NCBI RefSeq assembly: GCF_003851545.1
Contig: NZ_BHVX01000013.1
Coordinates: 1 to 64,000, forward strand
Length of the DNA stretch: 64,000 nucleotides
Reading direction: 5' to 3'
From: Ralstonia sp. SET104
GTDB lineage: Bacteria > Pseudomonadota > Gammaproteobacteria > Burkholderiales > Burkholderiaceae
The notes under the pieces were generated by a model that saw nothing but the letters and a program-made list of their open reading frames with translations, ran no database searches and had not been told where the DNA came from. This document shows, piece after piece, positions 1,700 to 23,295 of this stretch. Made by a program: the position numbers and the translations under genes. Each line of letters begins with the position of its first letter. Positions within the stretch are counted from its first letter, which is position 1.

Positions 1700-1792
1700 T
1701 GTCGCCATAGCGAAGAAAATTAGAAAAAACGCTATCTTGCTTAGAGAAAATAGCAAAGTAAGTTAGAAAAAATAGCGAAGTTTGCTGAACTG
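1700..1792. repeat. left transposon end with TnsB-type binding sites
   Basis: After the terminal TGTCGCCA come tandem sites with a 20-bp core: TAGCGAAGAAAATTAGAAAA (1708-1727), a diverged copy (1731-1750), TAGCAAAGTAAGTTAGAAAA (1751-1770) and a partial copy from 1773. The consensus is close to TAGCRAAGNNRRTTAGAAAA. Arrays of about 20-22 bp TnsB sites are characteristic of Tn7-family ends. Confidence 0.85.
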
Positions 1793-1939
1793 GATGGCGT
1801 AGATCGTGTTGCGGTGTCAATGCTGGGCCATTCCGGCTTGCTTCGCTCGTGCTAGTACAGGCTTCGCGCTCGCGCCGGGACTCGACACTGGTGACCTGCT
1901 CCCGGTAACAGGGCCAGAGGGCTTCTAGTAAAGCCCAAT

Positions 1940-2767
1940 TCAAGTTTGCTCCTGAGCGGCAGGAGCCACCGCTGTTGCCCGATACCGCGCCGCGAACTCT
2001 GCGGGCGATTGGTAATTCAATGCGCTGTGTGGCCGCGCCTCGTTGTAATCCTGGCGCCAGGCTGCGATGACAGCGCGTGCACGTGCAAGGCTCGTGAACC
2101 AGTGCTCGTTCAGGCATTCGTCCCGGAACTTGCCGTTGAACGACTCGATGTAGGCATTCTGCGTCGGCTTGCCGGCCTGAATCAATTTCAAGGTTACGCC
2201 GTTGGCGTAGGCCCATTGGTCCAGCGCTCGGCTCGTGAACTCCGGCCCCTGGTCCGTGCGCAGCGCTTTGGGGTAGCCCCTGAAGCGCGCCGCGTGGTCC
2301 AGCGCTCGCGCCACATACAAGCCCGAGATGCCGTGGTCCACGACGATGTCGACCGACTCCTTCGTGAAGTCGTCGACAATGGTCAGGCACTTCAGACGCC
2401 GTCCGTTGGACAGCGCATCCATCACAAAATCAATCGACCATACCTCGTTCGGCGCGGCCGGCAGCGCCAGTGGCTCGCGCTCCACCATCACCCCGTGGCG
2501 CCGCCGCCGGCGCCGCACAGCCAAACCTGCCTCGCGGTACAACCGGTGCACGCGCTTGTGATTTGCATGTGTACCTTCGCGCTCTAGGAGGGCGTGCAGT
2601 CGCCGGTAGCCGAAACGCCGGCGCTCATGCGCCAGCTCGACCAGCCTCGCTTTGAGCATCTCGTTTCCGGAGTCACTTTGGGCTGCGTAGTGCAGCACGC
2701 TGCGGGACAGCCCGACAAGCCGGCAGGCGCGACGCTCGGAGATGTTGACCTTCTGCCGAATCGCCAC
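1940..2767 (-). CDS. IS407-group transposase OrfB (DDE catalytic part)
   Basis: The frame encodes 275 aa from GTG at 2767 (MAIRQKVNISERRACRLVGL). It has an N-terminal HTH_21-like region (residues 40-95) and an rve integrase core: first Asp in WSIDFVMDAL, second Asp in LRTDQGPEFTS, and Glu in NAYIESFNGKFRDECL, so all three DDE residues are present. The C-terminal ARPHSALNYQSPAEFA is typical of the group. OrfB is normally made as an OrfAB fusion by -1 frameshifting from orfA. Because the upstream orfA is deleted internally, a functional OrfAB is doubtful. Confidence 0.9.
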   Translation of the reverse strand: MAIRQKVNISERRACRLVGLSRSVLHYAAQSDSGNEMLKARLVELAHERRRFGYRRLHALLEREGTHANHKRVHRLYREAGLAVRRRRRRHGVMVEREPLALPAAPNEVWSIDFVMDALSNGRRLKCLTIVDDFTKESVDIVVDHGISGLYVARALDHAARFRGYPKALRTDQGPEFTSRALDQWAYANGVTLKLIQAGKPTQNAYIESFNGKFRDECLNEHWFTSLARARAVIAAWRQDYNEARPHSALNYQSPAEFAARYRATAVAPAAQEQT

Positions 2768-2793
2768 GACCGCCTCGCGCTTGGCTTGTGGGC

Positions 2794-2928
2794 TCAGGGC
2801 TTTCCCTTGACCACCACCTTCAGCGCTTCCATGTCCAACATCGCCTCGGCCAGCAGCTTCTTCAGCTTGGCGTTCTCGGCTTCCTTCAGGAACCCGATGA
2901 TTTGCTCTTCCGTAAATCGCTTCTTCAT
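2794..2928 (-). pseudogene. IS407-group OrfA with internal deletion
   Basis: Only 44 codons remain. The start MKKRFTEEQIIGFLKEA is the standard IS407-group OrfA N terminus, and ENAKLKKLLAEAMLDMEALK is its leucine-zipper-like C-terminal part. The roughly 45 residues between them, which hold most of the helix-turn-helix, are missing in frame. A good ribosome site precedes ATG at 2928. The product would lack the end-binding domain, so the element is probably immobile by itself. Confidence 0.85.
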
Positions 2929-2996
2929 GTCCGCCTTCCTCTCCGAAAACGGACTCTACTAGCTTCCCGGTGGACCGGTTTATTGGGGGCAGGTCA

Positions 2997-3516
2997 CTGG
3001 CAACCCTCCATGGCCGCCTATAACCTAGCTCGACAAGCTTGGCAACGCGATATCCAAATGCATGCCGTGCTCGGCATCAAGGATTACGCATGGCAAAGCC
3101 TGTATCACTTTACCGTTGGCTGCGCCATGATCGATCAACGCTTGTCGACGCTTGCTCAATATGAGGTTCAGGCTTGACACGGATGTTCTGCTCCGGGAAA
3201 GCTCCGCCAATCCATCAGCTTTCGGACTCCGCTTGGCAAGGACACCGCAATCCAGGCTTTGGAACTCGTGTGGGTTGCGGGGGCAGAATTGTGGAGGCGC
3301 GTTGGCGCGCCACGCGCGACGCACCACATCCCGGCCTGTCAGAGCTTTCCAGGAGTCTGCGACTATGCATATGGCAGCGTCCCAAGCCTCGGCCAGGCAA
3401 ATCCACCACGTCGGGTGTATGGTCGCCTTGGCCTGCGGGCCAAATATTCGTGATGCTGTGTGTGTGTTGGCGTTGTAAGGGGCCTAGCTCCACCACCATG
3501 GGCTGCGATCGAGCAG
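2997..3516 (+). other. interrupted unidentified gene remnant and non-coding stretch
   Basis: From the IS junction to the TAG/TGA region near 3177 a plus-strand frame reads WQPSMAAYNLARQAWQRDIQ and ends ...LSTLAQYEVQA. It looks like the C-terminal end of a protein whose upstream part was cut by the IS. Joining across the CTGG duplication extends the frame only to a stop about 13 codons further upstream, so the gene was already damaged. I do not recognise it. From about 3180 to 3516 I see no supported gene. Confidence 0.35.
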
Positions 3517-3981
3517 TCAGCCCGCAAAGGATTTCGCAAGGCACTCCACGATCAGATCGCGCAAAGAATTCGCAGTCAGGTCGCTCAGATCAAGGGTGAT
3601 CTCAGAGGTTGACGCCGTTCCGCTACGGTTGGAAACCACCATGTGCACGTGAACTTTTTGGTCGAGCGCGTCGCCTATCAACGTGATCTTGGGGTATTGG
3701 TTGGCGTGCCCTGAGTCATATTCCTGTGCCTCCCTGCCGGCGGGAAAAACATGGAGCGTCGTGCTCAGTGCCGTCATTTCGACTTTGAAGCCATGGCCGC
3801 GTTTCTGCAGGTGGGCGCCGATGTCTTCAAAGACGGGATGCGCTGTCTTCATTCGGAACGCCGCGAAATCGGTCCGAAATTTTTCCACTGCGATCTGCTT
3901 GTCGGCAGCGTCTTCCTTCTCTTCGGCCTTGCGCTTGTCGAACGCATTCATTGCTGCGTCAAGCTTGTCATAAGAGCTCAT
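3517..3981 (-). CDS. hypothetical cytoplasmic protein (154 aa)
   Basis: The frame starts at ATG 3981 with a GAGGGACG ribosome site just upstream. The protein has no signal peptide or membrane segment. Residues 1-35 are charged and helical (FDKRKAEEKEDAADKQIAVE), then a mixed domain contains PVFEDIGAHLQKRGHGFKVE and a conserved-looking C-terminal LTANSLRDLIVECLAKSFAG. I do not recognise the family. It is the first cargo gene after the IS407-group element, and its start lies 20 bp from a degenerate NRAMP gene end. Confidence 0.7.
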   Translation of the reverse strand: MSSYDKLDAAMNAFDKRKAEEKEDAADKQIAVEKFRTDFAAFRMKTAHPVFEDIGAHLQKRGHGFKVEMTALSTTLHVFPAGREAQEYDSGHANQYPKITLIGDALDQKVHVHMVVSNRSGTASTSEITLDLSDLTANSLRDLIVECLAKSFAG

Positions 3982-4001
3982 ATTCGTCCCTCGCTAGGAT
4001 G

Positions 4002-4097
4002 GGGATCTACACCGCGAGCCGGCTCAGGATTGTCCTGGACTGGACTGCCACATCGATCATGGGCGCTGCCGCCATGGCGATGTTCCTATCATTGTAG
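4002..4097 (+). pseudogene. 3' remnant of an NRAMP-like transporter gene
   Basis: Thirty-one codons plus TAG encode GIYTASRLRIVLDWTATSIM followed by GAAAMAMFLSL. This matches the C terminus of the intact transporter ending at 8699 (GPYTASRPMIVLGWTATAIM followed by GAAAMAMLL). The rest of the gene is absent. It marks the left edge of a diverged duplication shared with 8610-9289 and shows that a second NRAMP-like gene was once here. Confidence 0.8.
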
Positions 4098-4186
4098 GCA
4101 TCGACACGCAAACACATTGTGCGCATCTCGACGCTGACCTCTTGCAACGGGTTGGCGCCGTGCCTCCCTCAATGGCACTGCCTGCT

Positions 4187-4423
4187 TCAGCGCGCAAACT
4201 CAGCGCACTGTTGCCCCGGTCGTATCCCAGCGCTGAATGCGATGCCAGAGGAAATGGATCCTTCCGGGATAGCGGCCCCTGCCCAGCCTGTGGCACGTCC
4301 ATCATTGGGCGTGAAGCGATATTCGGAAAACCATCGCCGGTCACTACGCTGCGTCGTGCGCACTTCGAGCGCTCCGTTGGGCAGGTCAAGCGAGCTAATT
4401 ATGGAGATCCTCGTTGCGGTCAC
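4187..4423 (-). CDS. small conserved protein, paralogue 1 (start codon altered)
   Basis: The frame is 78 aa from GTG at 4423. It is paralogous to the protein at 8784-8999; the shared core includes RTTQRSDRRWFSEYRFTPN, then AAIPEG, SSG, AFSAGI and GQQCAE. Most nucleotide differences between copies fall at third codon positions, which argues that the minus strand is coding. At the position where paralogue 2 has its ATG this copy has ATA, so it must use the upstream GTG or is poorly translated. Function unknown. The single Cys and the WF-SEYRFTPN segment are the most conserved. Confidence 0.6.
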   Translation of the reverse strand: MTATRISIISSLDLPNGALEVRTTQRSDRRWFSEYRFTPNDGRATGWAGAAIPEGSISSGIAFSAGIRPGQQCAEFAR

Positions 4424-4498
4424 CCTGGTATGCCGGAACGTGCCGGTTCACTGTTATTTGTGATTCCAACGTAGTTTGCTGGTGAGGACCTGTCGGCT

Positions 4499-4509
4499 CG
4501 GTACCGTAC
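4499..4509. promoter_or_regulatory. CGGTACCGTAC motif (candidate operator)
   Basis: This 11-bp motif, in the context GTCGGCTCGGTACCGTACAG, recurs at 9097-9107 and in variant form at 6504-6514 and 11315-11325, always 170-300 bp ahead of a cargo gene. Here the downstream gene is at 4712. Its role is inferred from recurrence only. Confidence 0.35.
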
Positions 4510-4711
4510 AGAAGTCGGTCGGTTGTTGGTCCCTTAGATCGAAGCTGTTGCACCGCCACCGTCATGCACAAACACATCGGAGCAGACCACGCGATCAATG
4601 CGTCTGCTGCCGTACCGACACCTTCCCAGCGATCAAGGATCTTGGTTCTTGGGACATTCGCGCGACACATGCCTATTGCCGCACGGGTGCCCCCCTCCAA
4701 CGGAGATCGCC

Positions 4712-4996
4712 ATGGATGCCTATCCGACTTGCCAATACAAGGGGTACGACGTTTATCCCTTGATCTACCTGTTTGACCCGCCTCGGGAATGGCACGAGCG
4801 TCGTCCAGATCGGTCATACAGCGCCTCTGTGATGATCTGCCTCGAAGGCGCATTTCCGGATGCGGAGCATTCCCGTATTTTTCGCCTGAGCGGTGAACCA
4901 TGGGAGAGCATCGGTACGGCCAAGCGTGCCGCCATGAAGGGCGCTGAAGAGATCATCAACGGCTTCGTTCCCGTTCAGTCCATGGCCTTCGCGTGA
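4712..4996 (+). CDS. hypothetical protein (94 aa)
   Basis: The start at 4712 was chosen because GGAGATCGCC precedes this ATG. The sequence begins MDAYPTCQYKGYDVYPLIYL and is a compact soluble protein without signal or membrane segments. It includes an aromatic/proline-rich part (FDPPREWHERRPDRSYSASV) and a C-terminal helix with AKRAAMKGAEEIINGF. I do not recognise the family. It lies directly downstream of repeat copy 1 and 105 bp before the transglutaminase-like gene, on the same strand. Confidence 0.7.
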   Translation: MDAYPTCQYKGYDVYPLIYLFDPPREWHERRPDRSYSASVMICLEGAFPDAEHSRIFRLSGEPWESIGTAKRAAMKGAEEIINGFVPVQSMAFA

Positions 4997-5101
4997 TCGC
5001 CCACCAGTTTTTGGGCAACGGTCGGGACTCCGCGACGCGGCTATTCACCCATCACTTTTTTTCCAACAACCATGTGGCTCCGGGGGCTACAGGAGGGTCG
5101 T

Positions 5102-5962
5102 ATGGTTCGCATGCGCTACTCAGTCCGCTTGGCCTATGAGGTACGTGATCCAACTGCGGATTTCATTTTTAATGTTCACGCCGCGAAGACGTCTCGCCAG
5201 ACGATCGTCGCCGAGTCACTGCATCTGACGCCGGCGATGTCGGCCGTGCCTCATACCGAACCGACCTTGCGCAATCGCCGTTTGCGTGTACGGGCGCCTC
5301 GGGGCAACTTCACCTTGACCTATGAGGCGACGGTGGACATAGAACACCTATTGACGCCCGCCGAACTGCTGCACGAAGTCCCTATTGCGGATTTACCGCT
5401 GTACGTTGTCCCATTCTTGACCCCTAGTCGCTATTGCGAGTCGGACCGGCTCATGGAGTTTGCGCAGCAGGAATTTGGCGGCTGCCAACGTGGCTATCCG
5501 CTGGTTATCCGGATTCGTGACTGGGTCTGTCGTTACGTGCGATTTGTACCGCAGTCAACGAGCGAGCGAACGTCTGCGGTCGGCACGCTCGTGGAGCGAA
5601 AGGGCGTGTGCCGCGACTATGCGCACTTGATGATTGCATTGTGCCGCGCGCTGAGCATACCGGCGCGCTTCGCAACCAGTCTCGACTATGGTGCCGATCC
5701 ATCGCTGGGATTGCCTGACTTCCACGCCTTCGTGGAGGTTTTTCTGGGAAACCAATGGTATCTGGTCGACCCCTCGCAGGCGGCGGTGCCCATGGGGCTT
5801 CTGCGAATCGGTACCGGACGCGATGCGGCGGACGTGCCCATTGCCCTGGTGTTTGGTAACGTCAAATTGTCGCGGCCGATCGTGGAAGTTCAGGCCCTTG
5901 AGAACGCGGATCTGAAAACCAGCGTGCCAATTGACACTGTCCAAGGAATCAGTACGTGGTGA
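5102..5962 (+). CDS. transglutaminase-like cysteine protease-fold protein
   Basis: The product is 286 aa from ATG 5102, which has a GGAGGG ribosome site 5 bp upstream. The N-terminal 110 residues resemble the beta-rich bacterial transglutaminase N domain. The transglutaminase core follows, with Cys in RKGVCRDYAHLM, His in LPDFHAFVEVF and Asp in WYLVDPSQ, giving the complete Cys-His-Asp triad. Proteins of this family hydrolyse or modify peptide or amide bonds; the substrate is unknown. There is no signal peptide, so it is probably cytoplasmic. It is one of the larger cargo genes of the Tn7-like element. Confidence 0.88.
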   Translation: MVRMRYSVRLAYEVRDPTADFIFNVHAAKTSRQTIVAESLHLTPAMSAVPHTEPTLRNRRLRVRAPRGNFTLTYEATVDIEHLLTPAELLHEVPIADLPLYVVPFLTPSRYCESDRLMEFAQQEFGGCQRGYPLVIRIRDWVCRYVRFVPQSTSERTSAVGTLVERKGVCRDYAHLMIALCRALSIPARFATSLDYGADPSLGLPDFHAFVEVFLGNQWYLVDPSQAAVPMGLLRIGTGRDAADVPIALVFGNVKLSRPIVEVQALENADLKTSVPIDTVQGISTW

Positions 5963-5979
5963 GAGGTGGATGTGGCGAC

Positions 5980-6240
5980 TTATCGCTCGTCCGTCGCGGG
6001 AGACTCCTCTTCTGGGCCGAGAATCACGTCTACTGCGGCGCGGCCTGCCAGTTCGCCAATCAGGTGCGCCCAGCGTCGAGAAAAAGGGCTGCCGTGGACC
6101 TTGATGCGCTTGCCTATCGCAGCGACACCAGGCGGCTTCATGGGGCCGTCGATGCTGAACCACAGATCGAACATGTCCTTCTGCGTCCCAATCAATTGCA
6201 GATGAATTTCGAAGCCTCGGTACTCGGTTGTACGGGTCAT
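5980..6240 (-). CDS. hypothetical small protein (86 aa)
   Basis: The start at ATG 6240 has TGGAGGCG upstream. The sequence MTRTTEYRGFEIHLQLIGTQ is followed by a segment rich in aromatic residues (FDLWFSIDGPMKPPG) and an acidic tail EEESPATDER. No signal or membrane segment is present. The family is not recognised. It is convergent with the transglutaminase-like gene, with stops 17 bp apart. Confidence 0.65.
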   Translation of the reverse strand: MTRTTEYRGFEIHLQLIGTQKDMFDLWFSIDGPMKPPGVAAIGKRIKVHGSPFSRRWAHLIGELAGRAAVDVILGPEEESPATDER

Positions 6241-6667
6241 GCTGCGCCTCCATTCTTCGCTGCCGCCTCTGCAAGCGTAGTGCATCAAACGGGGAGAAAT
6301 GACCGTTATTGCAACGGTCGTGCGCATCTTATGCGGCAAACCAGAATGGATCGTGCAGTTCGGAGCGCCAAGTAGGCCCAATCCAAGCGGTAGTTCGATC
6401 GCTTCTTGCCGGACGTTTAGGCAGCCTGAACTGCCTTCTTCCAGCGTGTCTCGGTTCTTCCCACCACGATCCTTTAAGCCTCCCGTCGGTAGGACGTTAC
6501 GTACGGTACCGGACCGTCTTTACGCTCCCAAGCATTTACCCTGGATCAAGGTGGAACTACGTATTCTCAATGAGAGTTCTTGCGGCTCCGGGCTCGATTT
6601 GGCACTGGAAGCGTGTTGGACGCAGGTTCGCCAGGATGTGCACGGGAGCCTGCCAGAGGAGCGCGTC
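6241..6667 (+). other. gene-free region with promoter-like motif
   Basis: These 427 bp hold no supported gene. They include the palindrome-like motif at 6504-6514 ahead of the DUF3309 gene. A short segment near 6355 (GCAGTTCGGAGCGCCAAG) resembles one near 15040 (GGCAGTTTGGCGCTCCAAG), so both may belong to a repeated regulatory or insertion-scar sequence. Confidence 0.4.
6504..6514 (+). promoter_or_regulatory. CGGTACCGGAC motif upstream of DUF3309 gene
   Basis: The context GTACGGTACCGGACCGTCTT is shared, in the same orientation relative to the gene, with the region upstream of the second DUF3309 gene (GTACGCTACCGGACCGTTTT on the minus strand at 11311-11325). The distances to the start codons are similar, about 155 and 175 bp. 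It is a candidate promoter or operator. Confidence 0.45.
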
Positions 6668-6826
6668 ATGTCTGTCGGTGTCCTGCTACTTACCATCTTG
6701 GCCATCGCTCTCGTCGGGGCGATTCCGGTGTGGCCCTACAGCGCTGAGTGGACTTACTGGCCAAGCGGAGCCATTGGCGTTCTTGTTCTTTTCGTGCTCG
6801 TGCTGATGCTCACGGGGCAAATCTGA
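6668..6826 (+). CDS. DUF3309-type small membrane protein, copy 1
   Basis: This 52-aa protein starts MSVGVLLLTILAIALVGAIP. It has two hydrophobic segments around a central WPYSAEWTYWPSGAIG, the layout of DUF3309 proteins (W-P-x-S near the middle, hydrophobic C terminus). The start is fixed by GAGGAGCGCGTC. It probably sits in the inner membrane. The family is common in stress and environmental Proteobacteria but its function is unknown. A paralogue is at 10980-11138. Confidence 0.85.
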   Translation: MSVGVLLLTILAIALVGAIPVWPYSAEWTYWPSGAIGVLVLFVLVLMLTGQI

Positions 6827-6886
6827 ACGCGCGCGGCAGAGTTTCGTCAATGATTTTCCAAAATAATCAGTTATGCGAGGGATGTC

Positions 6887-7204
6887 ATGCCAGATACGAA
6901 CGTAAGGCGTACTTTTCGAGGGCTCCCGTTGACCGCTGCCCAGGATGCCGAGATCCGTCATTACATCAAAGCCAAAACGCGGCGGCATGAACCGTGGGAC
7001 ACGCCAGAGTTGGAGGCCATGCTCAAAGACATGCTGACGCCTCCTATTGGTGCGCAAGAGGAGTCGGTGGAATTTCTGGAGCAAGCGAAGGCATCCGCAG
7101 AGCGTGCCGAATCTTCAGTGGACGAGGCAATGGACCCTACCGAGGCCTATGAGGAGCGAAACGCGGCCAAAGAAGCGGAGGCAATGAAAAGGCCACGGGG
7201 GTGA
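6887..7204 (+). CDS. hypothetical charged protein (105 aa)
   Basis: The start at ATG 6887 follows GCGAGGGATGTC. The protein is highly charged: TAAQDAEIRHYIKAKTRRHE, then a long acidic and alanine-rich helix (EQAKASAERAESSVDEAMDP) likely to form a coiled coil, ending in AAKEAEAMKRPRG. No membrane segment is present. The family is not recognised. It follows the DUF3309 gene by 60 bp on the same strand and could be co-transcribed. Confidence 0.65.
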   Translation: MPDTNVRRTFRGLPLTAAQDAEIRHYIKAKTRRHEPWDTPELEAMLKDMLTPPIGAQEESVEFLEQAKASAERAESSVDEAMDPTEAYEERNAAKEAEAMKRPRG

Positions 7205-7412
7205 ACCCTTTCGTCCCCAAGCCGGGCGCTTGCAGCGCTTCCTGTGCCTCCGGTGTTGCTTGCTGGTCTTGGATGCGCTTCTCTTCATTCAATGCGCAGA
7301 CCAATGCACAGGGATGTTGCAGAACAGCTTTTGCGGACCCGCGATGCTTCTGGTCCTCGGTAGAGCGCTATGATCATCTCCAGCCGACCTTCGGTGAACA
7401 AGGACTCCCAGA

Positions 7413-8699
7413 ATGGATGCCAGTGGACACCACCGGGTCAATCTTTATCGCACCTTGCGGGCGCGGTTGAGAGATCATCCCTTGTCCCGCGTTGGCCCTG
7501 GCCTCATCACCGGGGTGGCCGATGACGATCCGAGCGGGGTCGCGACCTATTCGCAGGCCGGCGCACAGTTTGGGTTGGACATGCTTTGGACGATGCCGCT
7601 CGCTTTCCCCTTGATGGCCGCGATTCAATCCATGTGCGCAAACATGGGACGTGTCACCGGAAAGGGGCTCGCCGCCAACATCAAGGATGTCTTCCCGCCG
7701 AGTGTGCTGCGCGGTGTCGTGCTGCTATTGCTGGTCGCAAACACACTGAATATCGCCGCAGACGTCGCGGCGATGGGCGAGGTCGTAGAACTTGTTTCCG
7801 GTGTCGACCGGCACCTCATGACGGCATTCGTCGTGTTTGGCACGCTGGCGCTGCAGATATTCGTTCCTTACCATCGTTACGTCTTCTTTCTGAAGTGGCT
7901 GACAGCTTCCTTGCTGGCCTACGCAGCCGTCTTGTTTACAGTGCATGTCCCGTGGGGCCAAGTTGCGCTGCATACGGTGTGGCCCCACTTCAAGCTCAAA
8001 GCGAGCGCCGCATCCATGGTCGTTGCGGTCTTCGGGACCACCATCAGCCCCTATCTCTTCTTTTGGCAGGCTTCCGAGGAGGTTGAGGACATGCACGCGC
8101 GCCCATCGCTGAAACGCGATGGCGCCAAGGCTGGCACGGAGCTACGGCGTATCCGGTGGGACACGTGGAGCGGCATGCTTTATTCGAACGTGACCGCGTA
8201 TTTCATCATCCTGGCGACAGGCGTGACCCTTCATGTGTCCGGCGTCACCGACATCACGACGGCGGCACAGGCCGCCAGTGCATTACGGCCGCTTGCAGGA
8301 GACTTTGCGTACCTGCTGTTCACCATCGGCATTTTGGGCGTCGGTCTCATCGGCGTACCCGTGCTGGCCGGCTCGGGCGCCTACGCGCTTTCCGAAACCA
8401 TGGGTTGGAAGGAGGGGCTGGAACGCAAGGTAAGCGACGCACGTGGGTTCTACAGCATCATCGCGGTCAGCGTACTTGCAGGGCTTGCAATTCAGTACTC
8501 TCCGATCAGCCCGATGAAAGCGCTCTTTTGGAGCGCAGTCATCAATGGCGTGGTGGCGGTACCGCTGATGGTGGTCATCATCCTGCTGGTCTCGAAACCC
8601 GCTGTCATGGGGCCTTACACCGCAAGCCGACCCATGATCGTTCTGGGCTGGACCGCCACGGCGATCATGGGCGCTGCCGCCATGGCGATGCTCCTATGA
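7413..8699 (+). CDS. NRAMP-family divalent metal transporter (variant motif)
   Basis: The product is 428 aa with about eleven hydrophobic segments in the APC/NRAMP pattern. TM1 carries GVADDDPSGVATYSQAG where classical Mn/Fe NRAMPs have DPGN. TM6 carries GTTISPYLFFWQASEEVED where classical ones have MPHN. The Asp-Pro and the TTISPYLFFWQ signature are typical of the NRAMP-like clade found in many soil bacteria. The missing Asn and Met suggest altered ion preference, and the substrate cannot be told from sequence. It is an inner-membrane protein. Its 3' end is part of the duplication also seen at 4002-4693. Confidence 0.9.
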   Translation: MDASGHHRVNLYRTLRARLRDHPLSRVGPGLITGVADDDPSGVATYSQAGAQFGLDMLWTMPLAFPLMAAIQSMCANMGRVTGKGLAANIKDVFPPSVLRGVVLLLLVANTLNIAADVAAMGEVVELVSGVDRHLMTAFVVFGTLALQIFVPYHRYVFFLKWLTASLLAYAAVLFTVHVPWGQVALHTVWPHFKLKASAASMVVAVFGTTISPYLFFWQASEEVEDMHARPSLKRDGAKAGTELRRIRWDTWSGMLYSNVTAYFIILATGVTLHVSGVTDITTAAQAASALRPLAGDFAYLLFTIGILGVGLIGVPVLAGSGAYALSETMGWKEGLERKVSDARGFYSIIAVSVLAGLAIQYSPISPMKALFWSAVINGVVAVPLMVVIILLVSKPAVMGPYTASRPMIVLGWTATAIMGAAAMAMLL

Positions 8700-8783
8700 T
8701 ACGAGTCGACACGTAGACACATTGTGAGCATGCCGATGTTGACCTCGTGCGGCGGTACCTCTCCCACAATGGCACTACCTGCT

Positions 8784-8999
8784 TCAGCGGGTAAGCTCAG
8801 CGCATTGTTGCCCCAGTAGTATCCCCGCGCTGAATGCAAGACCAGAAGAAACGAATCCTTCCGGAATCGCAGCCTGTGCCCAAGCGGTGACACGTCCATT
8901 GTTGGGCGTAAAGCGATATTCAGAAAACCATCGCCTGTCACTCCGCTGCGTCGTGCGTATTTCAAGCATTCCGTTTGACAGGCTAAGTGAACTGTTCAT
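8784..8999 (-). CDS. small conserved protein, paralogue 2
   Basis: The frame is 71 aa from ATG 8999 with AAGGATCT upstream (MNSSLSLSNGMLEIRTTQRS). It is paralogous to 4187-4423 with substitutions concentrated at third codon positions, evidence for purifying selection on this frame. Conserved features are RRWFSEYRFTPNNGR, AAIPEGF and LGQQCAELTR. There is no signal peptide or membrane segment. I do not recognise the family. It converges on the NRAMP-like gene with 84 bp between stops. Confidence 0.65.
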   Translation of the reverse strand: MNSSLSLSNGMLEIRTTQRSDRRWFSEYRFTPNNGRVTAWAQAAIPEGFVSSGLAFSAGILLGQQCAELTR

Positions 9000-9096
9000 A
9001 GAGATCCTTGTTGCGATTCCCTCGGTATGCCGGGATGTGCCGGCTCACTGCAATTTGTGACTGCAGCGTAACGTGATGGGGGAGTCGCTGTCGGCC

Positions 9097-9107
9097 CGGT
9101 ACCGTAC
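9097..9107. promoter_or_regulatory. CGGTACCGTAC motif, second copy
   Basis: This motif is identical to 4499-4509 and sits in GTCGGCCCGGTACCGTACAG. The segment is within the duplicated block, so conservation could partly be descent, but the motif is better preserved than its surroundings. The next plus-strand gene is the lipoprotein at 9394. Confidence 0.35.
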
Positions 9108-9609: not shown

Positions 9610-9631
9610 GGCTTAGCCGAGACCATGGAAG

Positions 9632-9673: not shown

Positions 9674-9678
9674 TATCG

Positions 9679-14679: not shown

Positions 14680-14742
14680 CAGCCTTTGGGGTGGGTCAGT
14701 TTTCGATGCAAATCCTGGGTCAGGATTCCGTGCAAATCAACA

Positions 14743-16056: not shown

Positions 16057-16138
16057 GGCAGCCTCCTTTCCACTCGCCGTAGATTCGTATCCCAGCCATC
16101 AATGACTGTAGGGTTACAGAAACGATGGCTGCCGTGGG

Positions 16139-17191
16139 TCAACGCACCTCGTTGCCTAGGCTTTGTGCGGCCCACGCTCGTGACAGCACAATTTTAAGCG
16201 CGGCGATCACGGGTACCGACAAAAAAATGCCCGCAACCCCACCGAGTTGTTCGCCTGCGAGCAGCCCCACAATGACGAGGAGTGGACTGACCTTCACCCC
16301 CTCGCTCATCAGATAGGGGTTCAGCGCGTAGTCTTGGAACAGGCGGTAGGCGACGATGAATCCGATCAGCCAGAGCAAGTGCGGATACCCGCTAAAGCCG
16401 GCGACCGTGACTGTCGCCACCACCGCGGCCAACGGCCCAGCGAACGGAATGAACTCCAGCACTGCGGCCGTGGTTGCCAGCAGCAGCGCATAGGGCACGC
16501 CCAGCAAGTAAAACGCGATGCTGTAGACAATCAATGTGGCCAGCGACAACAGCAAGAGTGCCCGAACATAGCGAGACAGGAGGGTATCCAGATCCTCAAT
16601 GATGCCCGCCCACAGGCGCCTATCGGAAGAGCGTATCCACGAAAGCAGCGCGGCATGAATCGATGGCGCTTCGTTGATCATCAGAAAGCTCATGATGGGG
16701 ATGAGCACGAGATAGACGAGATTGCTAGCCGCGTGCATGACACCCAATCCAACGCTGCGAACCAGCGGCATGGCCTGGTCTGAACTCGTCGAGAGTTGCT
16801 CACGTACGAATTCCAGGATGCGCGCACGCAATGGTTCCAGGAAGCTCGGCAGCGAAAGACGATCTGCCATGGTGCTGGTATCAAGCAACTTTGGGAGTTG
16901 ATCGGCGAGCCTGCCCGCTTCGTCCTGGACCGTCACACCAAACACCGAGCCAGCGACGATCGCCACGACAACGACCAGGATGAAGACGATACCGATCGAT
17001 ACGCTACGTGGTACCTTGCGCGGCATGTGCCGTTCCAGTCGCTCGACCAGCGGGTACAGCAAGTAGCTGAAGAACACAGCGAACACCGTGACCAACAGCA
17101 CGGAGGCAATCTTGTAGACGATCAGTACGGCAAGCGCGAATAAGAAAACTGTCCAGACAATTTTGCCGGCACGTGGGTCAAATCCGAGCAT
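16139..17191 (-). CDS. AI-2E family (PerM-like) permease
   Basis: The protein is 350 aa from ATG 17191, preceded by AAGGAGGAATCGTC. It has about seven or eight hydrophobic segments in the family's pattern: two near the N terminus (IVWTVFLFALAVLIVYKIAS), a central soluble stretch, and a C-terminal bundle with the conserved SEGVKVSPLLVIVGLLAGEQ and GGVAGIFLSVPVIAALKIV. Family members export autoinducer-2 or act as ion antiporters; the substrate here is unknown. Inner membrane. It lies 82 bp upstream of the Crp/Fnr gene on the same strand. Confidence 0.93.
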   Translation of the reverse strand: MLGFDPRAGKIVWTVFLFALAVLIVYKIASVLLVTVFAVFFSYLLYPLVERLERHMPRKVPRSVSIGIVFILVVVVAIVAGSVFGVTVQDEAGRLADQLPKLLDTSTMADRLSLPSFLEPLRARILEFVREQLSTSSDQAMPLVRSVGLGVMHAASNLVYLVLIPIMSFLMINEAPSIHAALLSWIRSSDRRLWAGIIEDLDTLLSRYVRALLLLSLATLIVYSIAFYLLGVPYALLLATTAAVLEFIPFAGPLAAVVATVTVAGFSGYPHLLWLIGFIVAYRLFQDYALNPYLMSEGVKVSPLLVIVGLLAGEQLGGVAGIFLSVPVIAALKIVLSRAWAAQSLGNEVR

Positions 17192-17236
17192 GACGATTCC
17201 TCCTTGTCGGGGCTGTAGCAAAGCGAACCCCGATCG

Positions 17237-17758
17237 TTAGATTTGGCTCACGTGCGTCGCAATGCTTACACTGATTTTGGTGATCACCGCGTGGACCTTC
17301 GTCAGCGTGTCTAAGAACTCGCTGAAATGCGCCGCGTCCATACGATGATGCGTCGCGATTGCATTGGCCAGTTGTTCTCTAAGCTGACGAATGTTGGCAA
17401 GCAATGCGATGACATCGCGCACGAGTTCAGGGGTACTGAGGTTGTGCAACTGAATTGCGGCGATCGCAGCTTCAAGCTCATCAATCGCGCGAATATCGAA
17501 TGACCTTTCTCCTGTGGCGATCGCGCTGACGGCTTGCTTATCGGGCAGCTCGCTGATAACGCGTCGTACCAGCTCCTCTGCCGCCATGGCAATTTCGCTC
17601 ACCGCTTTCGCCAATGTGCGCCTCTCCATTCGCCTTTCCGTGCGCTGAAGGAGCCAACCTGCCAGCCACGTTCCCGCAATCGCGACAATGATGGCGACTG
17701 CCTGTACCCACGCCGCTAACGCGGGATGCTTTTCGATCCAATCCAGAAGGCTGCTCAT
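17237..17758 (-). CDS. membrane-anchored helical protein of unknown function
   Basis: The protein is 173 aa from ATG 17758 (MSSLLDWIEKHPALAAWVQA). Residues 17-40 form one membrane segment (VQAVAIIVAIAGTWLAGWLL), followed by a basic stretch RTERRMERR and a long alpha-helical cytoplasmic region. The ribosome site is weak, so the start is the least certain part. Family not recognised. It ends 46 bp before the AI-2E permease gene and may be co-transcribed with it. Confidence 0.6.
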   Translation of the reverse strand: MSSLLDWIEKHPALAAWVQAVAIIVAIAGTWLAGWLLQRTERRMERRTLAKAVSEIAMAAEELVRRVISELPDKQAVSAIATGERSFDIRAIDELEAAIAAIQLHNLSTPELVRDVIALLANIRQLREQLANAIATHHRMDAAHFSEFLDTLTKVHAVITKISVSIATHVSQI

Positions 17759-17844
17759 GAGAGAGTTTTCGGTTCTTGACCCAAACGCAAACTGTCTCGT
17801 CTTCACCTGGGGTAGGTGGCCAGCGTCAAAACGGCATGCGAGAC

Positions 17845-18105
17845 TCATTCCGACTGATTGAACGTGCCGGCTTCGATATCTTTCCTGAAATGCTGGACCC
17901 AATCGGCTCCATCGCCGAGTGGGTATTCCCTTGTAATTTTGGTCGATAGTCGGGTTACCGTCACGTAGCCCTGTAAACCGAGGTTCTCGTCGCCTTTTGG
18001 GTCAGTCGTATCTACTTCAAGAAGTTCGAAGTCATCTTCTGCCTGACCATTGCGCTGCAAGGTTGCAAGAAATTCCCGTTGTTCATCCGGTTCGATCAGT
18101 CGCAC
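17845..18105 (-). CDS. hypothetical protein, paralogue of 10649-10906
   Basis: The protein is 86 aa starting at GTG 18105 with GATGAGGTACC upstream. It shares with 10649-10906 an RNG near residue 20, a VTV strand, a REY motif, and the pattern W-V-x-x-F-x-x-D-I followed by a terminal Phe. Soluble and acidic. Family not recognised. The two paralogues lie 7 kb apart in the same transposon, which suggests duplication within the cargo or convergent capture. Confidence 0.65.
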   Translation of the reverse strand: MRLIEPDEQREFLATLQRNGQAEDDFELLEVDTTDPKGDENLGLQGYVTVTRLSTKITREYPLGDGADWVQHFRKDIEAGTFNQSE

Positions 18106-18678
18106 GATTGGTACCTCATCTGTTCAAAGGGGGGCGAACCGAGTGAAGGCCAGGAGTTCTGGGGTAGGTCATTGGGTGCCTTTCTACGCCGGCGTCCCGA
18201 TGCCCGACCTCGCTTTCTCGATTGAACAGTTCGATCCGCCGAGTGTGTTTGTTAATGGCCCGAGAAAATTGTCGGACCGACCAGCGAAGTTGATGCAGTG
18301 GAGTGAACCGGCGACAAACGGTTGTCCGGAACGATGACGGCATGACGAAGGGGCACCTCCAGAGAGCCGCTCAGAGGCCAATTCGGCAGATCTTTCATCG
18401 CCGCCTGCTCAATTTATGCAACTTTCGCCGTTTGTTTGCTGCATTTATAGGCCATTCGTCGAAGCGATCCAGCCTCTTGCTGATGCAGACCATGCCATGT
18501 TGGCTAGGCACCAGCTTGCGCCTGTAATGGCTTGACTGTCATGTGCGCACTACATAAGCACTGCTGGTCGACCTAGACTGAAAAGCGCTCACAACGCTGA
18601 GCCCCCTCGCGATGGAGGGTCGACAAGTCTGGGTGCGGAAAGCAAGAATCCACGGATGTGTGCTTTGTGGAGCGCTTT
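18106..18678. other. gene-free region between cargo and tns genes
   Basis: In these 573 bp the open frames are short, overlap on opposite strands and lack ribosome sites. A moderately AT-rich part near 18400-18560 precedes tnsA and may carry its promoter. Nothing else can be supported. Confidence 0.4.
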
Positions 18679-19392
18679 ATGCCGGTGCGCCGGATCCCCA
18701 AAAACTACCTCTTCGTCACGGGACGTCACGCCTCCCCACGGGCGGCCCAAGTCATTGAGTTCGAGTCGATTCTGGAGAAGGAGTACATGCTCCTGTTGGA
18801 CTCGGATCCGCAAGTCGAATCGTACGAAGGCCAGCCCGTCGAGATTCCATTATCTCGCGGGCGGATCTATGTCCCAGATCTGCTGGTGACATATCGCCCC
18901 GCGTCTTTGGGCCTTCAGCGACCACCAGAGCTGGTGGAAGTCAAAACACAAGAGCACCTCAACCGATACGCTGAGAAGTACCGCGAGAAGTTCGCGGCGG
19001 CAGTTGTTTTCGCTGAAGAGCGGGGCTGGATTTTCGTGACCCGAACAGAGGCGGATGTCAGGACACCTCGCATCCAAAACCTGAAGTACTTGCACCGGTA
19101 CCGCCATACACCAGCAGATCCGGCTGCCGCTGAGCGCTTGCTTGATGCGATGCGTCTGGAGGGTAGTCCAACAACGCCGGCGGCATTGCTCGGCAATCTG
19201 GCGGGCAGCCTAGAGGAACGTGCAAATTGGACCCCAGTACCACATCGACATTCATCTGCGGCCTGTCAAACAACCTCGCTATGGCGGGCACATCGAGCGG
19301 CTCATGGGAACCGTGTCGGAAGAATTGAAGGGGCTGAAAGGCGCAACCTTCGCGAACCCGCGGCAGAAGGGGGAATACGATGCCGAGGGTAA
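18679..19392 (+). pseudogene. tnsA: TnsA endonuclease, 3' end lost
   Basis: ATG 18679 was chosen because TGGAG lies 6 bp upstream and MPVRRIPKNYLFVTG is the standard TnsA beginning; a GTG at 18658 is in frame but poorer. The restriction-enzyme-like N domain has Glu in FESILEKEYMLLL, Asp in YVPDLLVTY and the ExK of PELVEVKTQEHL, so the catalytic core looks intact. After about 180 residues (GNLAGSLEERA) the frame runs into tnsB sequence in the wrong frame, giving a nonsense tail of about 57 residues. The part that contacts TnsB/TnsC is therefore missing. TnsA normally cuts the 5' ends of the transposon. Confidence 0.88.
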
Positions 19393-19825
19393 TGCCTGTA
19401 TGACCTTCGATGAGCTGGAGAAGTGGCTCGTCTTGATGTTTGCGCGATACCACCGCGCAGTGCACTCGGGCATCGGCACAACACCACTGACCAAGTGGCG
19501 CGAAGGCATTCTTGGAACACGGGAAAAGATCGGCCGCGGATTGCCACCGATACGCACCGATGCAGAGAAGGTCCGGATCGATTTCATGCCATATGAGGAC
19601 CGGACCATCCAAGACTACGGTGTCGCGATCGCCGGAATTCACTACTTCCATGACATCTTGCGCCCGTGGGTGAACGCACGGGACCCAAAGGATTCGAAGC
19701 GGACCAGGCAGTTCCGGTTTCGCTACGACCCTAGCGACATGAGCGTGCTGTACTTTTTCGATCCCGATCTCAAACGCTATTTCGCGATCGACACCTTCCA
19801 GATCTTGATCCGGAGAAGGAGGTGA
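19220..19825 (+). pseudogene. tnsB: TnsB transposase fragment
   Basis: This fragment of about 200 codons starts just before the third catalytic residue: Glu in QPRYGGHIERLMGT. It continues through the conserved C-terminal parts (FDELEKWLVLMFARYHRAVH, GTTPLTKWREGI, RYDPSDMSVLYFFDPD) and breaks off shortly after AIDTFQIL. The DNA-binding domains and both catalytic Asp residues (normally about 400 residues) are deleted, as is the C-terminal TnsC-binding tail. It cannot catalyse joining. In Tn7-like elements TnsB binds the terminal 20-bp sites and does the strand transfer. Confidence 0.9.
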
Positions 19826-20448
19826 CCAAGTCTCCGGTGGTGATGATTGACGCGCCGCCTAAGCCTGATCTCTCGGACTTCTACAGCCGGATTATGGATA
19901 GTCTGATGACGCCGTATAAACCAACGGCTCCGGTCTATGAAAAGTACTCGCAGGTCAAACGGCTTTTCGGCGAGATGGATGTGCGAATCCTCATCGTTGA
20001 CGAGATCCATCATTTGATTGCCGGGGGGCTCACCAAGCAGCGCGAATTTCGCAATGCCCTCAAGAGCCTGAGCAACGAAGCGAAGATCAGCATCGTCGCC
20101 TCCGGGATCGAAGAGGCGTACAACGCGTTCAACGCTGATCCACAGATGTCGAGCCGATTCGTACCAATCGAGATGCCTAGCTGGACGCCGGGCCGGCAGT
20201 TGGGAACGTTGCTGATGACCCTTGAACACCGGACACCGCTTCGTAAGCCGTCAGGGCTGCATCGCCCGGAGATGATGCAAGCGATCTACATGAAGAGCGA
20301 GTCTACCCTCGGAGACATCTTCGACCTCGTGAAGACTGCGGCGGTGGAGGCCGTTCGGTCCGGGAACGAGGCGATCACAGAACACCAGCTTACCGAGTTG
20401 GATTGGGTCCCACCCTCCAAGCGCAGGACGTACACACGACGGCTATGA
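19822..20448 (+). pseudogene. tnsC: TnsC ATPase fragment lacking Walker A
   Basis: The frame of 208 codons begins by chance at GTG 19822, in a junction where a deletion joins tnsB to tnsC. It contains the strand SPVVMIDAPPKPDLSDFYSR, Walker B RILIVDEIHHLIAG, sensor 1 region AKISIVASGIEEAYNA and the C-terminal lid, but not the N terminus with Walker A. TnsC is the AAA+ regulator that links target selection to TnsAB. Without the P-loop it should not bind ATP. The gene overlaps tniQ by 4 bp (ATGA). Confidence 0.9.
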
Positions 20449-21515
20449 AAACGTGGTCATGTGCAAAGACGCCGCTCTGGCCAGTTCGGTACAAGCCCAT
20501 ACCGGGTGAGCTTTTATCGAGTTGGATCGTGCGGCTAGCGCATGGCCATGGAATGAGTGTGATGCCGTTCTGCAATGTGGCACTTGGCCCTGCAACTCGG
20601 GTGCTGACAGTGGATATTGATCGACACGGTCCCGAATCGCTTCTGACATCACTGGCCTTGCACACTGGAACCCCTCTGGAGGTAGTTCGTCGGGCCACGC
20701 TCCGTGTCTATGAGCAGATCCTGTACCCACAGTTTCACGTTGGGGGATCCCTTCCGTGGGTGATCTCCATCAATCTGCCGCGGGGAACCCGGTTCGGTCC
20801 AGGTCTTCAGTTCTGTCCATACTGCCTGAGGGGCGACCCAATACCGCACTTCCGCCTCCGCTGGCGGGTTGCACTGCAAACCTTCTGTGAGCGGCACCAA
20901 TGTGTACTACTTGATCGGTGCCCGCGCTGCCGCGCTTGCTTGTTCATCCAGCGGGTGGATGCGAGTTTGTATCATGTCGAAACTGACGGAATTTGCCATT
21001 GCCCCAACTGCGACTACGACCTTCGGCTGGCGGAGGCGCCCGTCGTAGACGATCGAGGGAGCGGTCTCCTTCCGCAGCTGCAGCAACTGACGCGCGACCT
21101 CTCCGTCGAGAACGCAGTCGGTCGGCGTGAACTGTTGGAGCGTCTACACGCTATGGCAGTGACAGTGTTGTCCTGCAAGGTTACACCGCGTCTCTGCAAT
21201 TGCTTAGCTTGCCGCTTCGGCTGCTCCGACTTGGAAATTCAGCAGGCCAGAAAGCCGGCGCTGGAATTGCAATCTGTGCTGACCCGGCACGCCGTGCTGT
21301 TATGGTCGCTCTGGCTTCTTCAACATGATCCCGAAGCGCATGAGCGTCCAGTCAAGCCCATCGCTCCGCTGCACCATCCGTTCATCAAAGATATCTTTGC
21401 GCAGTACCGGCGCGAAGCAACCGTCCAGGCACGTCCCGATTCACCGGTCGAGCTTTCGATGGTAAGAAGCAGCTCATCGCCGATACGTGATGGCCGCGTG
21501 TTGCAGCTGCATTGA
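20445..21515 (+). CDS. tniQ: TniQ/TnsD-family target selection protein
   Basis: The protein is 356 aa from ATG 20445, overlapping the tnsC stop. The N terminus has the TniQ pattern (YKPIPGELLSSWIVRLAHGH). Zinc-finger motifs follow: FCPYCLRGDPIPHFRLRWRV, CERHQCVLLDRCPRCRACLF and CHCPNCDYDL. The length fits a short TnsD/TniQ rather than the ~500-aa Tn7 TnsD. Such proteins bind a specific chromosomal attachment site or a CRISPR effector; no Cas genes are present. It is the only tns gene that looks complete and might recognise the end of oxyR, which is inference. Confidence 0.9.
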   Translation: MKTWSCAKTPLWPVRYKPIPGELLSSWIVRLAHGHGMSVMPFCNVALGPATRVLTVDIDRHGPESLLTSLALHTGTPLEVVRRATLRVYEQILYPQFHVGGSLPWVISINLPRGTRFGPGLQFCPYCLRGDPIPHFRLRWRVALQTFCERHQCVLLDRCPRCRACLFIQRVDASLYHVETDGICHCPNCDYDLRLAEAPVVDDRGSGLLPQLQQLTRDLSVENAVGRRELLERLHAMAVTVLSCKVTPRLCNCLACRFGCSDLEIQQARKPALELQSVLTRHAVLLWSLWLLQHDPEAHERPVKPIAPLHHPFIKDIFAQYRREATVQARPDSPVELSMVRSSSSPIRDGRVLQLH

Positions 21516-22286
21516 GATCCACGAGCGCAATTCTTCGGGAGCACTGATCTGGGTGTGCTCCAAGGCCATAACCTGATACTCGGTACCGTCCTGGACCGAG
21601 ATGAACGCTTCCGTCGCTGCCTGGATCGCACGCTGTATCGTGTCTTCACCCTTGTCCTCCAACGGGACGGCAAACGATATGGGTGGGCAGGCTTCGTGAA
21701 CCATGAGCAACGTGGACGCTTCCTTAGAGGAGACCGTGAAGGCGGCTACACGCTTGAGCCTGTGCCCGTCTTCCGGAACCAGCAGGTGTTCGTTCAGTAC
21801 TCCATCCTCGTCCGCGATCAGTGGCATCGGAACGGACCACCCGTCGTCACGACTCGCCGTCAGTACTCGCACAGAAGTGTCATTCAGTGCGGATAGTGCT
21901 TTGACTGCGTGATCCAAGAATTCCGGTGGGTCGGGGATTTCGTCGTCGCCTTCGACGATTTGCGCTTCTCGGATTCGCTTCGTGGAGCCAGGGTCGCCGA
22001 TCGCGTGCTCGCTGATTGGTTCACCACGTGAGGCACTTGCACGGGGCCTTTGTCCGGCGATAGTGCGATCCGCGAAGACCCATTTATTCTCCAAGTCGAC
22101 GAACCGCCGATTGCCGCGCATGGGCATCGTGGCCGGAGCGAGCTGTGACGAGGGGTCACGCTCCTCGAGGCTGATTTGGGAGGGCTCCTTCGCTCTCCGG
22201 GCTGAAGGCGCTGCCTCCTGTGGCGGGGTATCAGGCGCCGTACTGGAGCCGCGCGCTTTCTTCGTGCCCGTCACGCAGAATCGCAA
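21474..22286 (-). CDS. unknown protein divergent from vsr (up to 270 aa)
   Basis: The frame runs from TTG 22286, without a good ribosome site. Residues 1-53 are low-complexity, so translation may begin at the Met near residue 54 (MPMRGNRRFVDLENKWVFAD). The C-terminal 150 residues look like a folded domain (PEFLDHAVKALSALNDTSVR, LNEHLLVPEDGHRLKRVAAF, LEDKGEDTIQRAIQAATEAF). No membrane segment or known catalytic motif is seen. Its last 42 bp overlap the 3' end of tniQ tail to tail. Its place beside vsr suggests a role with, or a remnant of, a restriction or repair module; I cannot name the family. Confidence 0.5.
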   Translation of the reverse strand: MRFCVTGTKKARGSSTAPDTPPQEAAPSARRAKEPSQISLEERDPSSQLAPATMPMRGNRRFVDLENKWVFADRTIAGQRPRASASRGEPISEHAIGDPGSTKRIREAQIVEGDDEIPDPPEFLDHAVKALSALNDTSVRVLTASRDDGWSVPMPLIADEDGVLNEHLLVPEDGHRLKRVAAFTVSSKEASTLLMVHEACPPISFAVPLEDKGEDTIQRAIQAATEAFISVQDGTEYQVMALEHTQISAPEELRSWISMQLQHAAITYRR

Positions 22287-22331
22287 TGACTTGAAGGGGA
22301 ACGGGTAACCCCAGATCGCCGAAGTCGTCTG

Positions 22332-22700
22332 ATGTCCCGCATACGCAGCAAGAACACCAAGCCCGAAGTCGAAGTGCGATCAACTTTGCACCGAATGGGA
22401 TATCGATACGTGCTGCATAAGCGAGGGCTCCCCGGTACCCCCGATCTGGTGTTTCCGGCCCGAGCGAAGGTTCTTTTTGTTCATGGGTGCTACTGGCATG
22501 GGCACACATGCAAGTACGGCAAGGCGCAGTCGAAAAGTAATGTCGAGTTTTGGCAACAAAAGATCGACACTAACCGCCGTCGTGATCGTCGCAACTTGCG
22601 CAAGTTGCGTGCTGCGGGATGGAGCGTTGCGACGGTCTGGGAGTGCCAAATTAAGCAGCGCAAATGGCTAGATCGGATTGTCCGATTTCTTGAGGGATGA
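22332..22700 (+). CDS. vsr: very short patch repair endonuclease Vsr
   Basis: The frame is 122 aa from ATG 22332. It has the Vsr core: MSRIRSKNTKPEVEVRSTLH, the catalytic Asp in LPGTPDLVFPARAKVLF, VHGCYWHGHTCKYGKA with zinc-binding Cys/His, FWQQKIDTNRRRD and GWSVATVWECQIK. Vsr nicks at T:G mismatches made by deamination of 5-methylcytosine. Upstream in-frame codons read RRSRL, as in the usual Vsr N terminus, yet no earlier start codon exists before a stop, so the N terminus is slightly shortened. No cytosine methylase gene remains nearby. Confidence 0.9.
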   Translation: MSRIRSKNTKPEVEVRSTLHRMGYRYVLHKRGLPGTPDLVFPARAKVLFVHGCYWHGHTCKYGKAQSKSNVEFWQQKIDTNRRRDRRNLRKLRAAGWSVATVWECQIKQRKWLDRIVRFLEG

Positions 22701-22815
22701 TTGGATCCTGAGGCTCGATATACAGCCCTCCGAAAATCCCGGGTTTAGGCGCTGGAAGCAGGACGGCCCCTGAAAACGGTCATGCCCAGAGTACGCCAAA
22801 CTTATGGCTCAAGGA

Positions 22816-23010
22816 TCACTTTCTTTCCTTGGACTCCTGCGCGGTGCTAGGGGTAGGCTGAGCTTCCAACTCATTGTTTCGCGCGCGCTGGATGTAGGTG
22901 GGTGAAATGTTCTGTTCCTTGAGTCGATGCACTGCCTGGGCAACTGCCGCGTTAGCGCGTACTAGGAACAGATTGCTGGTCATAAAACGCCCGAGTTTGT
23001 CAGTCGGCAT
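22816..23010 (-). CDS. hypothetical small protein (64 aa)
   Basis: The start ATG 23010 has CGGAGAAAGCG upstream (MPTDKLGRFMTSNLFLVRAN). A helical N-terminal part with EQNISPTYIQRARNNELEAQ is followed by a Thr/Ser/Glu/Lys-rich tail. No signal or membrane segment. Family not recognised. It is the last gene before the right transposon end. Confidence 0.55.
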   Translation of the reverse strand: MPTDKLGRFMTSNLFLVRANAAVAQAVHRLKEQNISPTYIQRARNNELEAQPTPSTAQESKERK

Positions 23011-23188
23011 CGCTTTCTCCGTCTCGTCTGCATACAGCATACCGCTGTCGGTGTCCTAGCGTCGCTTGGTACGCGACCCTAAGAGGTCGCGCCTCGTAGT
23101 CGGGAGGCGTTTGTTCGCGCGGTGCGAAATTCATCCATCCACGAGTTGTCGCTAGCGCGGCTGGGGACGCGGATCTGGGCGATTCAGT

Positions 23189-23256
23189 GTTGAAGAGCAA
23201 CTTTGATATTTTCTAGCCTACTTCGCTATTTTCTAATTTCCTCCGCTACGTTGACA
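23189..23256. repeat. right transposon end with TnsB-type binding sites
   Basis: Read inward from 23256: TGTCAACG, then TAGCGGAGGAAATTAGAAAA (23248-23229), TAGCGAAGTAGGCTAGAAAA (23228-23209) and a weaker TATCAAAGTTGCTCTTCAAC (23208-23189). These are abutting 20-bp units matching those at the left end in inverted orientation. Tightly packed sites are typical of one end of Tn7-like elements. Confidence 0.85.
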
Positions 23257-23278: not shown

Positions 23279-23295
23279 TAGCGCACGCCTAATTG

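Follow-up and report, generated by a model that had tools for sequence, protein, structure and literature searches.

How a Tn7-like transposon comes to lie between oxyR and dps in Ralstonia, and which protein of the element chooses that place, are the questions raised by the first 64,000 nucleotides of contig NZ_BHVX01000013.1 of Ralstonia sp. SET104 (assembly GCF_003851545.1), hereafter called the window. The element occupies positions 1700-23256 of the window (21,557 bp), and comparison with related genomes (G numbers) and loci (L numbers) makes it probable that it is a Tn7-like transposon that inserts site-specifically. Its lineage has TnsA, TnsB, TnsC, a TniQ of small size and a remote TnsE encoded on the opposite strand, and in the Ralstonia branch the attachment site was probably switched from lipA to the oxyR-dps junction. 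The boundaries, the target duplication, the repeated insertion at one site, the recent insertion of a sibling element in two hosts and the loss of parts of tnsA, tnsB, tnsC and tnsE from the window copy can be read directly from the sequences.

The original prediction, made from the letters of the window, had set the boundaries at 1700 and 23256 with a CCGTC duplication outside both, and the sequence as well as the end positions of the siblings agree with it. The two copies of CCGTC lie just outside the element, at 1695-1699 on the oxyR side and at 23257-23261 on the dps side, where the duplication is also the start of an inverted repeat (23257-23275). The siblings in G003 and G014 are inserted at the same place, G003 and also G006 with the same CCGTC and G014 with ACCGT, so that a Tn7-like element with 5-bp duplication, as predicted, is confirmed. 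The termini, TGTCGCCATAGCG and (inverted) TGTCAACGTAGCG, are of the TGT...ACA type and agree at 10 of 13 bases. With up to three mismatches allowed, the pattern TAGCGAAGTARGYTAGAAAA was matched four times in the 64 kb, every time within the two ends (+ strand, 1708 and 1751; - strand, 23209 and 23229), against 0.00 expected from 100 shuffles; since the pattern itself was taken from these two ends, the result demonstrates clustering and is no independent discovery. The predicted TnsB-type sites form asymmetric arrays: in the tnsA-side end (1700-1799, + strand) they are spaced, at 1708-1727 and 1751-1770 with a weak third from 1773 (repeat lag 43), and in the tnsE-side end (23157-23256, - strand) they are close together, at 23229-23248 and 23209-23228 (repeat lag 20).

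The element is flanked by oxyR (724-1680, + strand) and dps (23948-24448, + strand), for which the best NCBIfam matches are OxyR and Dps, each under the cut-off of its family. Sixteen genomes of the genus were searched for OxyR, and the bases 3' of its stop were read. A two-ended element was found at the oxyR-dps junction in four genomes (G000, which is the window's own, G003, G014 and G006), inserted 19-24 bp past the oxyR stop position. The empty junctions anticipated by the original prediction were found in nine of the 16 (G001, G002, G005, G007, G008, G010, G011, G013 and G015), where the uninterrupted sequence fits the joined flanks of the occupied sites; the attachment site is thus fixed and has its empty counterpart. 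Three joined and nine empty sites could be aligned through an inverted repeat, GCCGTCA...TGACGGC, the 5' arm of which contains the duplication. On the dps side follows a TTGAT-N11-ATCAA box (23293-23313), kept in most of the aligned sites and a candidate part of the attachment site, which is presumably an operator of LysR type (OxyR). Three contigs carry the junction in G006, one with oxyR that ends in CCGTC, one with dps that starts with CCGTC and a third that is exactly the element, and we infer that the three are adjacent. This third contig, C35 (L012, L035; 1-35033), is a whole transposon from end to end, an outcome that assembly may give where a further copy exists or the site is empty in part. 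In G012 a matching left end follows oxyR together with about 16 kb of other genes (transport and metabolic; L036/L037), with mismatched flanking five bases; no tns gene was seen in this 16 kb, the genome has no TnsB match, the right end shows no close sites that could be recognised, and the insertion is possibly a non-autonomous derivative. A degenerate end-like sequence at the oxyR-dps site of G009 (L038) is probably the remnant of an old insertion, and in G004 other DNA follows oxyR.

The genes for TnsA, TnsB, TnsC and TniQ are all present in the siblings of G003, G014 and G006, with tnsB and tnsC of the window reduced to fragments. The open reading frames in G014 specify 222 (tnsA), 640 (tnsB), 301 (tnsC), 353 (tniQ) and 560 (tnsE) amino acids. 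The last of these, orf560, is convergent with the tns block and passes the cut-off of no family in Pfam or NCBIfam. Profile-profile comparison (hhalign) of 13 members of its family with seven TnsE sequences, six annotated as TnsE and one found via Pfam TnsE_C, gave Prob 92.4 and E 5e-7 over 405 columns, and all eight controls (two reversed profiles and six column shuffles) stayed at Prob 0.2 or less. Comparison with a single TnsE sequence was weak (P 0.086, a slight improvement on the 0.17-0.35 of six controls), and Pfam TnsE_C reached only E 0.14, in one of the 13 members. PDB sequences gave a single chance match to orf560 (E 1.6), PF18623 was found in one of 274 genomes across the class, not the window's, and plasmid relatives (3632 records) were all below 60% identity, the best among the matches listed being 41%, with no result for a further five records. 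Of 399 genomes of the order, 14, that of the window among them, have relatives of the convergent gene. Wherever both can be read, the gene and the tns block are on opposite strands, with the exception of G634. Its TnsE homology together with this constant strand (G634 excepted) rules out ordinary cargo, and by profile homology the unannotated frame is a remote TnsE. Tn6022 is described by Faure et al. (PMC10293859) with weak TnsE homologues on the opposite strand, and a review (PMC11406308) gives TnsE as almost universal among glmS- and comM-targeting elements.

The relatives outside Ralstonia are found at lipA. A search of 398 genomes of the family at E 1e-40 detected TniQ of the window type in eight; in the four that are not Ralstonia it is 33-37% identical. 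Among 14 loci outside the genus, the tnsE-side end lies against the 3' end of lipA in nine (G763, G410, G582, G626, G697, G735, G087, G036 and G314); the other five are G613, G518, G450, G634 and G037, the last four without a site call. A second collection, which may overlap the first, comprised 24 loci, three of Ralstonia and 21 others; lipA stands beside tnsE in five of the latter (L128, L134, L135, L137 and L140), and 15 have no tnsE match in the stretch examined. LipA proteins of G036, G763 and L128, the three checked, pass the NCBIfam cut-offs, and the 5-bp duplications match in all three lipA-site elements with both ends (G036, GTCAA; G087, CAAAC; L128, GCCAC). L141, G613 and G634 call for separate mention. 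In Polynucleobacter, L141 (14051-17172) represents either a third site or a decayed end, and the gene beside its tnsE-side end is presumably of LysR type. G613 (L063, L084/L085) carries a TnsE relative next to a gene that we take to be comM-like, with a TniQ frame of 542 amino acids, and is perhaps a comM-site branch. The G634 region (L090, L114; G634:C1:250357-264368) contains lipA, a tniQ piece, two TnsE relatives and two tnsB places, and may consist of nested, tandem or rearranged elements.

The end architecture is common to both sites. In all 14 tnsA-side ends the best repeat of the first site comes at 42-44 bases, G087 showing a tie. Nine of these ends were kept from a scan of 17 upstream stretches, which yielded none from G763, G410, G582, L127, L134, L135, L141 and L143; since the scan rewarded a spacing of 42-44, these nine are no independent test of it. 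The end of L128, one of the nine, is backed by its own duplication. The other five, those of the window, G003 and G006 and, identified by motif, of G036 and G087, are not mutually independent, window and G003 being nearly identical there and G036 and G087 near kin. Of the 12 tnsE-side ends placed by eye (G582, G626, G697, G314 and L137 were left out), eight have 20 as their best lag and all 12 have it within the best three, weakly in G735. The tns block was correctly predicted to read toward the end distal to oxyR, opposite to the layout of Tn7, for which rearrangement or a different branch had been proposed. Siblings in Ralstonia and lipA-site relatives have the same layout, which is therefore normal for the lineage; of the two proposals rearrangement is ruled out and the different branch stands.

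By TnsC the Ralstonia branch nests within the lipA-site elements. In a midpoint-rooted TnsC tree of 14 rows, from which the window fragment was left out and in which G613 forms a very long row, the oxyR-site proteins of G003 and G014 join the lipA-site protein of G763 (99/97), and this trio lies within a group with G410 and G582, both of the lipA site (98/99). The stem leading to the oxyR group measured 0.29 in the TnsC tree and 1.89 in a TniQ tree of 12 rows. The divergence of TniQ is concentrated in its C-terminal half: between G014 and G763, identity is 53% up to residue 192 and 17% beyond it. In the C half the three Ralstonia proteins are 16-22% identical to nine others in all 27 pairs, eight lipA-site proteins are 22-69% identical among themselves, mostly 22-33%, and one pair with G634 stands at 16%. 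From these comparisons we infer that the C-terminal half of TniQ carries site recognition and changed with the site, and we read the attachment site as having been switched through TniQ. In its full form this proposal is a retargeting from the coding end of lipA to a non-coding regulatory sequence next to oxyR, the dps promoter region that responds to OxyR, through replacement or fast change of the C-terminal 160 or so residues of a short TniQ and with no added selector, and in this form we hold it tentatively, at slightly under even confidence. If true, the attachment sequence recognised would be a promoter operator, not a gene end.

The side on which the recognised sequence lies was judged from the ends. 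The review (PMC11406308) describes a correlation in which the end with close sites faces the recognised attachment sequence. This end faces lipA in the relatives and dps in Ralstonia, so that by analogy recognition on the dps side is the more likely. The original prediction had used oxyR as the reference gene; the end architecture argues for dps as the side recognised. The present case in turn bears on the published correlation.

Several observations weigh against the explanation favoured here. Among lipA-site elements, too, it is the C half of TniQ that changes fast, so that the drop in identity is modest at similar N-half identity. Conservation picks no side of the site: in 12 sequences 27 of 45 columns are invariant at the oxyR end, and the dps side has 31 of 45. 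The occupied sites aligned with both flanks number only three. L141 has tnsE with no lipA beside its tnsE end, and in G634 tnsB and a TnsE relative share one strand at a second place, with the tniQ piece also on the strand of its TnsE relative. The window-type TniQ is short (353-356 amino acids), and Faure et al. (PMC10293859) see in a small TniQ the hint of an additional target selector.

TniQ might instead recognise oxyR at the 3' end of its coding sequence, as TnsD does with glmS, with the element in an orientation opposite to that of the lipA relatives. This alternative is somewhat unlikely. Conservation at the oxyR end comes close to that of the dps side, and the insertion point, so soon after the oxyR stop, resembles the distance between Tn7 and glmS; against this, the close-site end faces dps, while in the relatives measured it faces the conserved gene lipA, and the spacer between the oxyR stop and the right arm of the repeat ranges between 25 and 38 bases over 12 genomes.

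It is unlikely, too, that TniQ is not the sole chooser and is recruited by an unrecognised protein of the element or by a host factor at this site, such as OxyR itself or the inverted repeat extruded as a cruciform. The location of the duplication within the inverted repeat and the shortness of TniQ would fit such recruitment, and Tn6022 needs TnsF beside TniQ, according to Faure et al. (PMC10293859). No extra gene is present in the tnsABC-tniQ operon of G003 and G014, though not every cargo gene was searched for a selector; where the site differs, so does the C half of TniQ; and a single TniQ targets in elements of the Tn5053 family (PMC11406308). The likelihoods given to these two alternatives are not exclusive of the proposed switch through TniQ, as both dispute only its inferred steps.

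In the mechanism that we propose, the C-terminal half of TniQ would bind DNA on the dps side, TnsC would recruit TnsAB, and the element would enter with its close-site (tnsE-side) end toward the dps-side sequence. TnsE may serve a second pathway, as in Tn7. The lineage would have first used the 3' end of lipA, with the Ralstonia branch switching afterwards.

The inner tns and tniQ genes had been predicted to agree with a Tn7-like element, and this holds in full for tniQ alone. The tniQ gene (20445-21515, + strand; TniQ Pfam 3e-26; 76% to G014) is full length at 356 amino acids and encodes the probable site selector. The tnsA gene (18658-19236, + strand), recognised by the TnsA N-terminal Pfam domain and by alignment to siblings, lost its 3' end by deletion; tnsB (19235-19789, + strand) retains sibling residues 349-533 of 640, tnsC (19780-20448, + strand; TniB Pfam 3.5e-42, profile 55-188 of 189) residues 80-301 of 301, and tnsE (21474-22307, - strand) residues 284-560 of 560. 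The gaps relative to G003 over tnsA, tnsB and tnsC are about 1.1 and 0.6 kb. By comparison with the siblings the window copy is defective, parts of tnsA, tnsB, tnsC and tnsE being lost and tniQ and both ends kept; it is not expected to move alone, and since both ends are kept, an intact sibling could in principle mobilise it. That the copy is intact and faulty assembly produced the tnsB and tnsC deletions is very improbable: the assembly is in 58 contigs, but both junctions fall within one 148-kb contig, with aligning sequence on either side of each.

Recent movement is indicated by G006 and G014. Both elements are 35,033 bp long and differ by one base, whereas about 1,000 bases of host flank on the oxyR side are 92.8% identical, and the duplications (CCGTC and ACCGT) are shifted by one base; for these reasons we read them as two separate recent insertions of one element. 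That the element is instead ancestral at oxyR-dps in Ralstonia and was lost in many species, as the presence of all four two-ended copies of the searched genus genomes at one site might suggest, is scarcely credible, since TniQ differs by 24-28% where OxyR of the same genomes differs by 3-4%, and for G006 and G014 it is ruled out by near-identical elements in hosts with flanks 7% different and duplications one base apart.

The remainder of the window element is cargo and later insertions. An IS3-family insertion (1892-2995, - strand) and an IS21-family insertion (12274-14743, + strand; istA 12378-13904, istB 13894-14679) are both absent from G003. Between them (2996-12273) lie genes for a transglutaminase-like protein (5072-5962), an Nramp transporter (7413-8699), an SPFH/Band 7 protein (9679-10608) and others, and beyond them (15337-17902, - strand; 95% to G003) those for a Crp-type regulator (15337-16056) and an AI-2E-family transporter (16139-17221) and an unnamed frame (17237-17902). 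Near the dps-side end is a vsr-type endonuclease gene (22332-22700, + strand; NCBIfam TIGR00632, 1.8e-42), on about 0.6 kb that replaces about 6.3 kb of G003 sequence beside tnsE. The cargo of 2996-12273 is 99.2% identical to G003 over 9.3 kb, but the tns stretches only 79-84%, so that the window element is a mosaic; this contrast was read as recombination between elements at one site. No cas genes were found among the frames scanned with profiles, a scan that did not take in every frame and included no CRISPR search. PADLOC matched DruA (Druantia) to a cargo gene of G014 (L011:7246-8454) and GajA (Gabija) to a gene adjoining the tnsA-side end in G087 (L052:14422-16176).

Tn7-like elements are under development as tools for site-specific insertion, and how TniQ gains a new target is an open question. 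The material described here offers one transposition machinery with two sites and a short selector with a kept N half and a differing C half; together with a 35-kb element inserted twice, this makes the question of retargeting directly testable. It also adds a TnsE branch without a Pfam or NCBIfam name. Papers on Tn7-like elements at oxyR or lipA or in Ralstonia were looked for, and none was found that describes the site or the switch; the elements may be catalogued, for example, in the supplementary tables of Benler et al. (PMC8649781). TnsA and TniB family genes of R. pickettii are mentioned, with no site given, in PMC10869594.

Among the closest systems are the lipA-site elements of Burkholderiales identified in this analysis, for which no literature name was found. 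They share genes, gene order and end spacing with the oxyR branch, and their TnsC is about 40-71% identical to that of G014; they differ in the target, the 3' end of lipA, and in the C half of TniQ. The Tn5053/Tn402 family resembles the Ralstonia element in its short, TniB-type TnsC (Pfam TniB) and single TniQ. It differs in that the Ralstonia element carries TnsA and TnsE and enters the chromosome and not the resolution sites of plasmids (features of the family in part from PMC11406308). Tn6022, which uses comM with TniQ and TnsF, is similar in its remote tnsE on the opposite strand and its TniQ without a long extension (PMC10293859), but the Ralstonia element is not in comM, its neighbouring genes being left open; no frame lies between tniQ and the convergent tnsE of G003 and G014, which overlap at their ends, although no TnsF profile was run. 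With Tn7 the element shares TGT/ACA ends, the 5-bp duplication, asymmetric arrays of TnsB sites, TnsA, TnsB and TnsC with a selector of TniQ domain, TnsE, and insertion just outside a conserved gene (Tn7 features in part from PMC11406308). It is not Tn7 proper, as it lies at oxyR-dps instead of glmS, its selector of 353-356 amino acids is shorter than TnsD, with no long TnsD present, its close-site end is downstream, not upstream, of the tns operon, and its tnsE is on the opposite strand.

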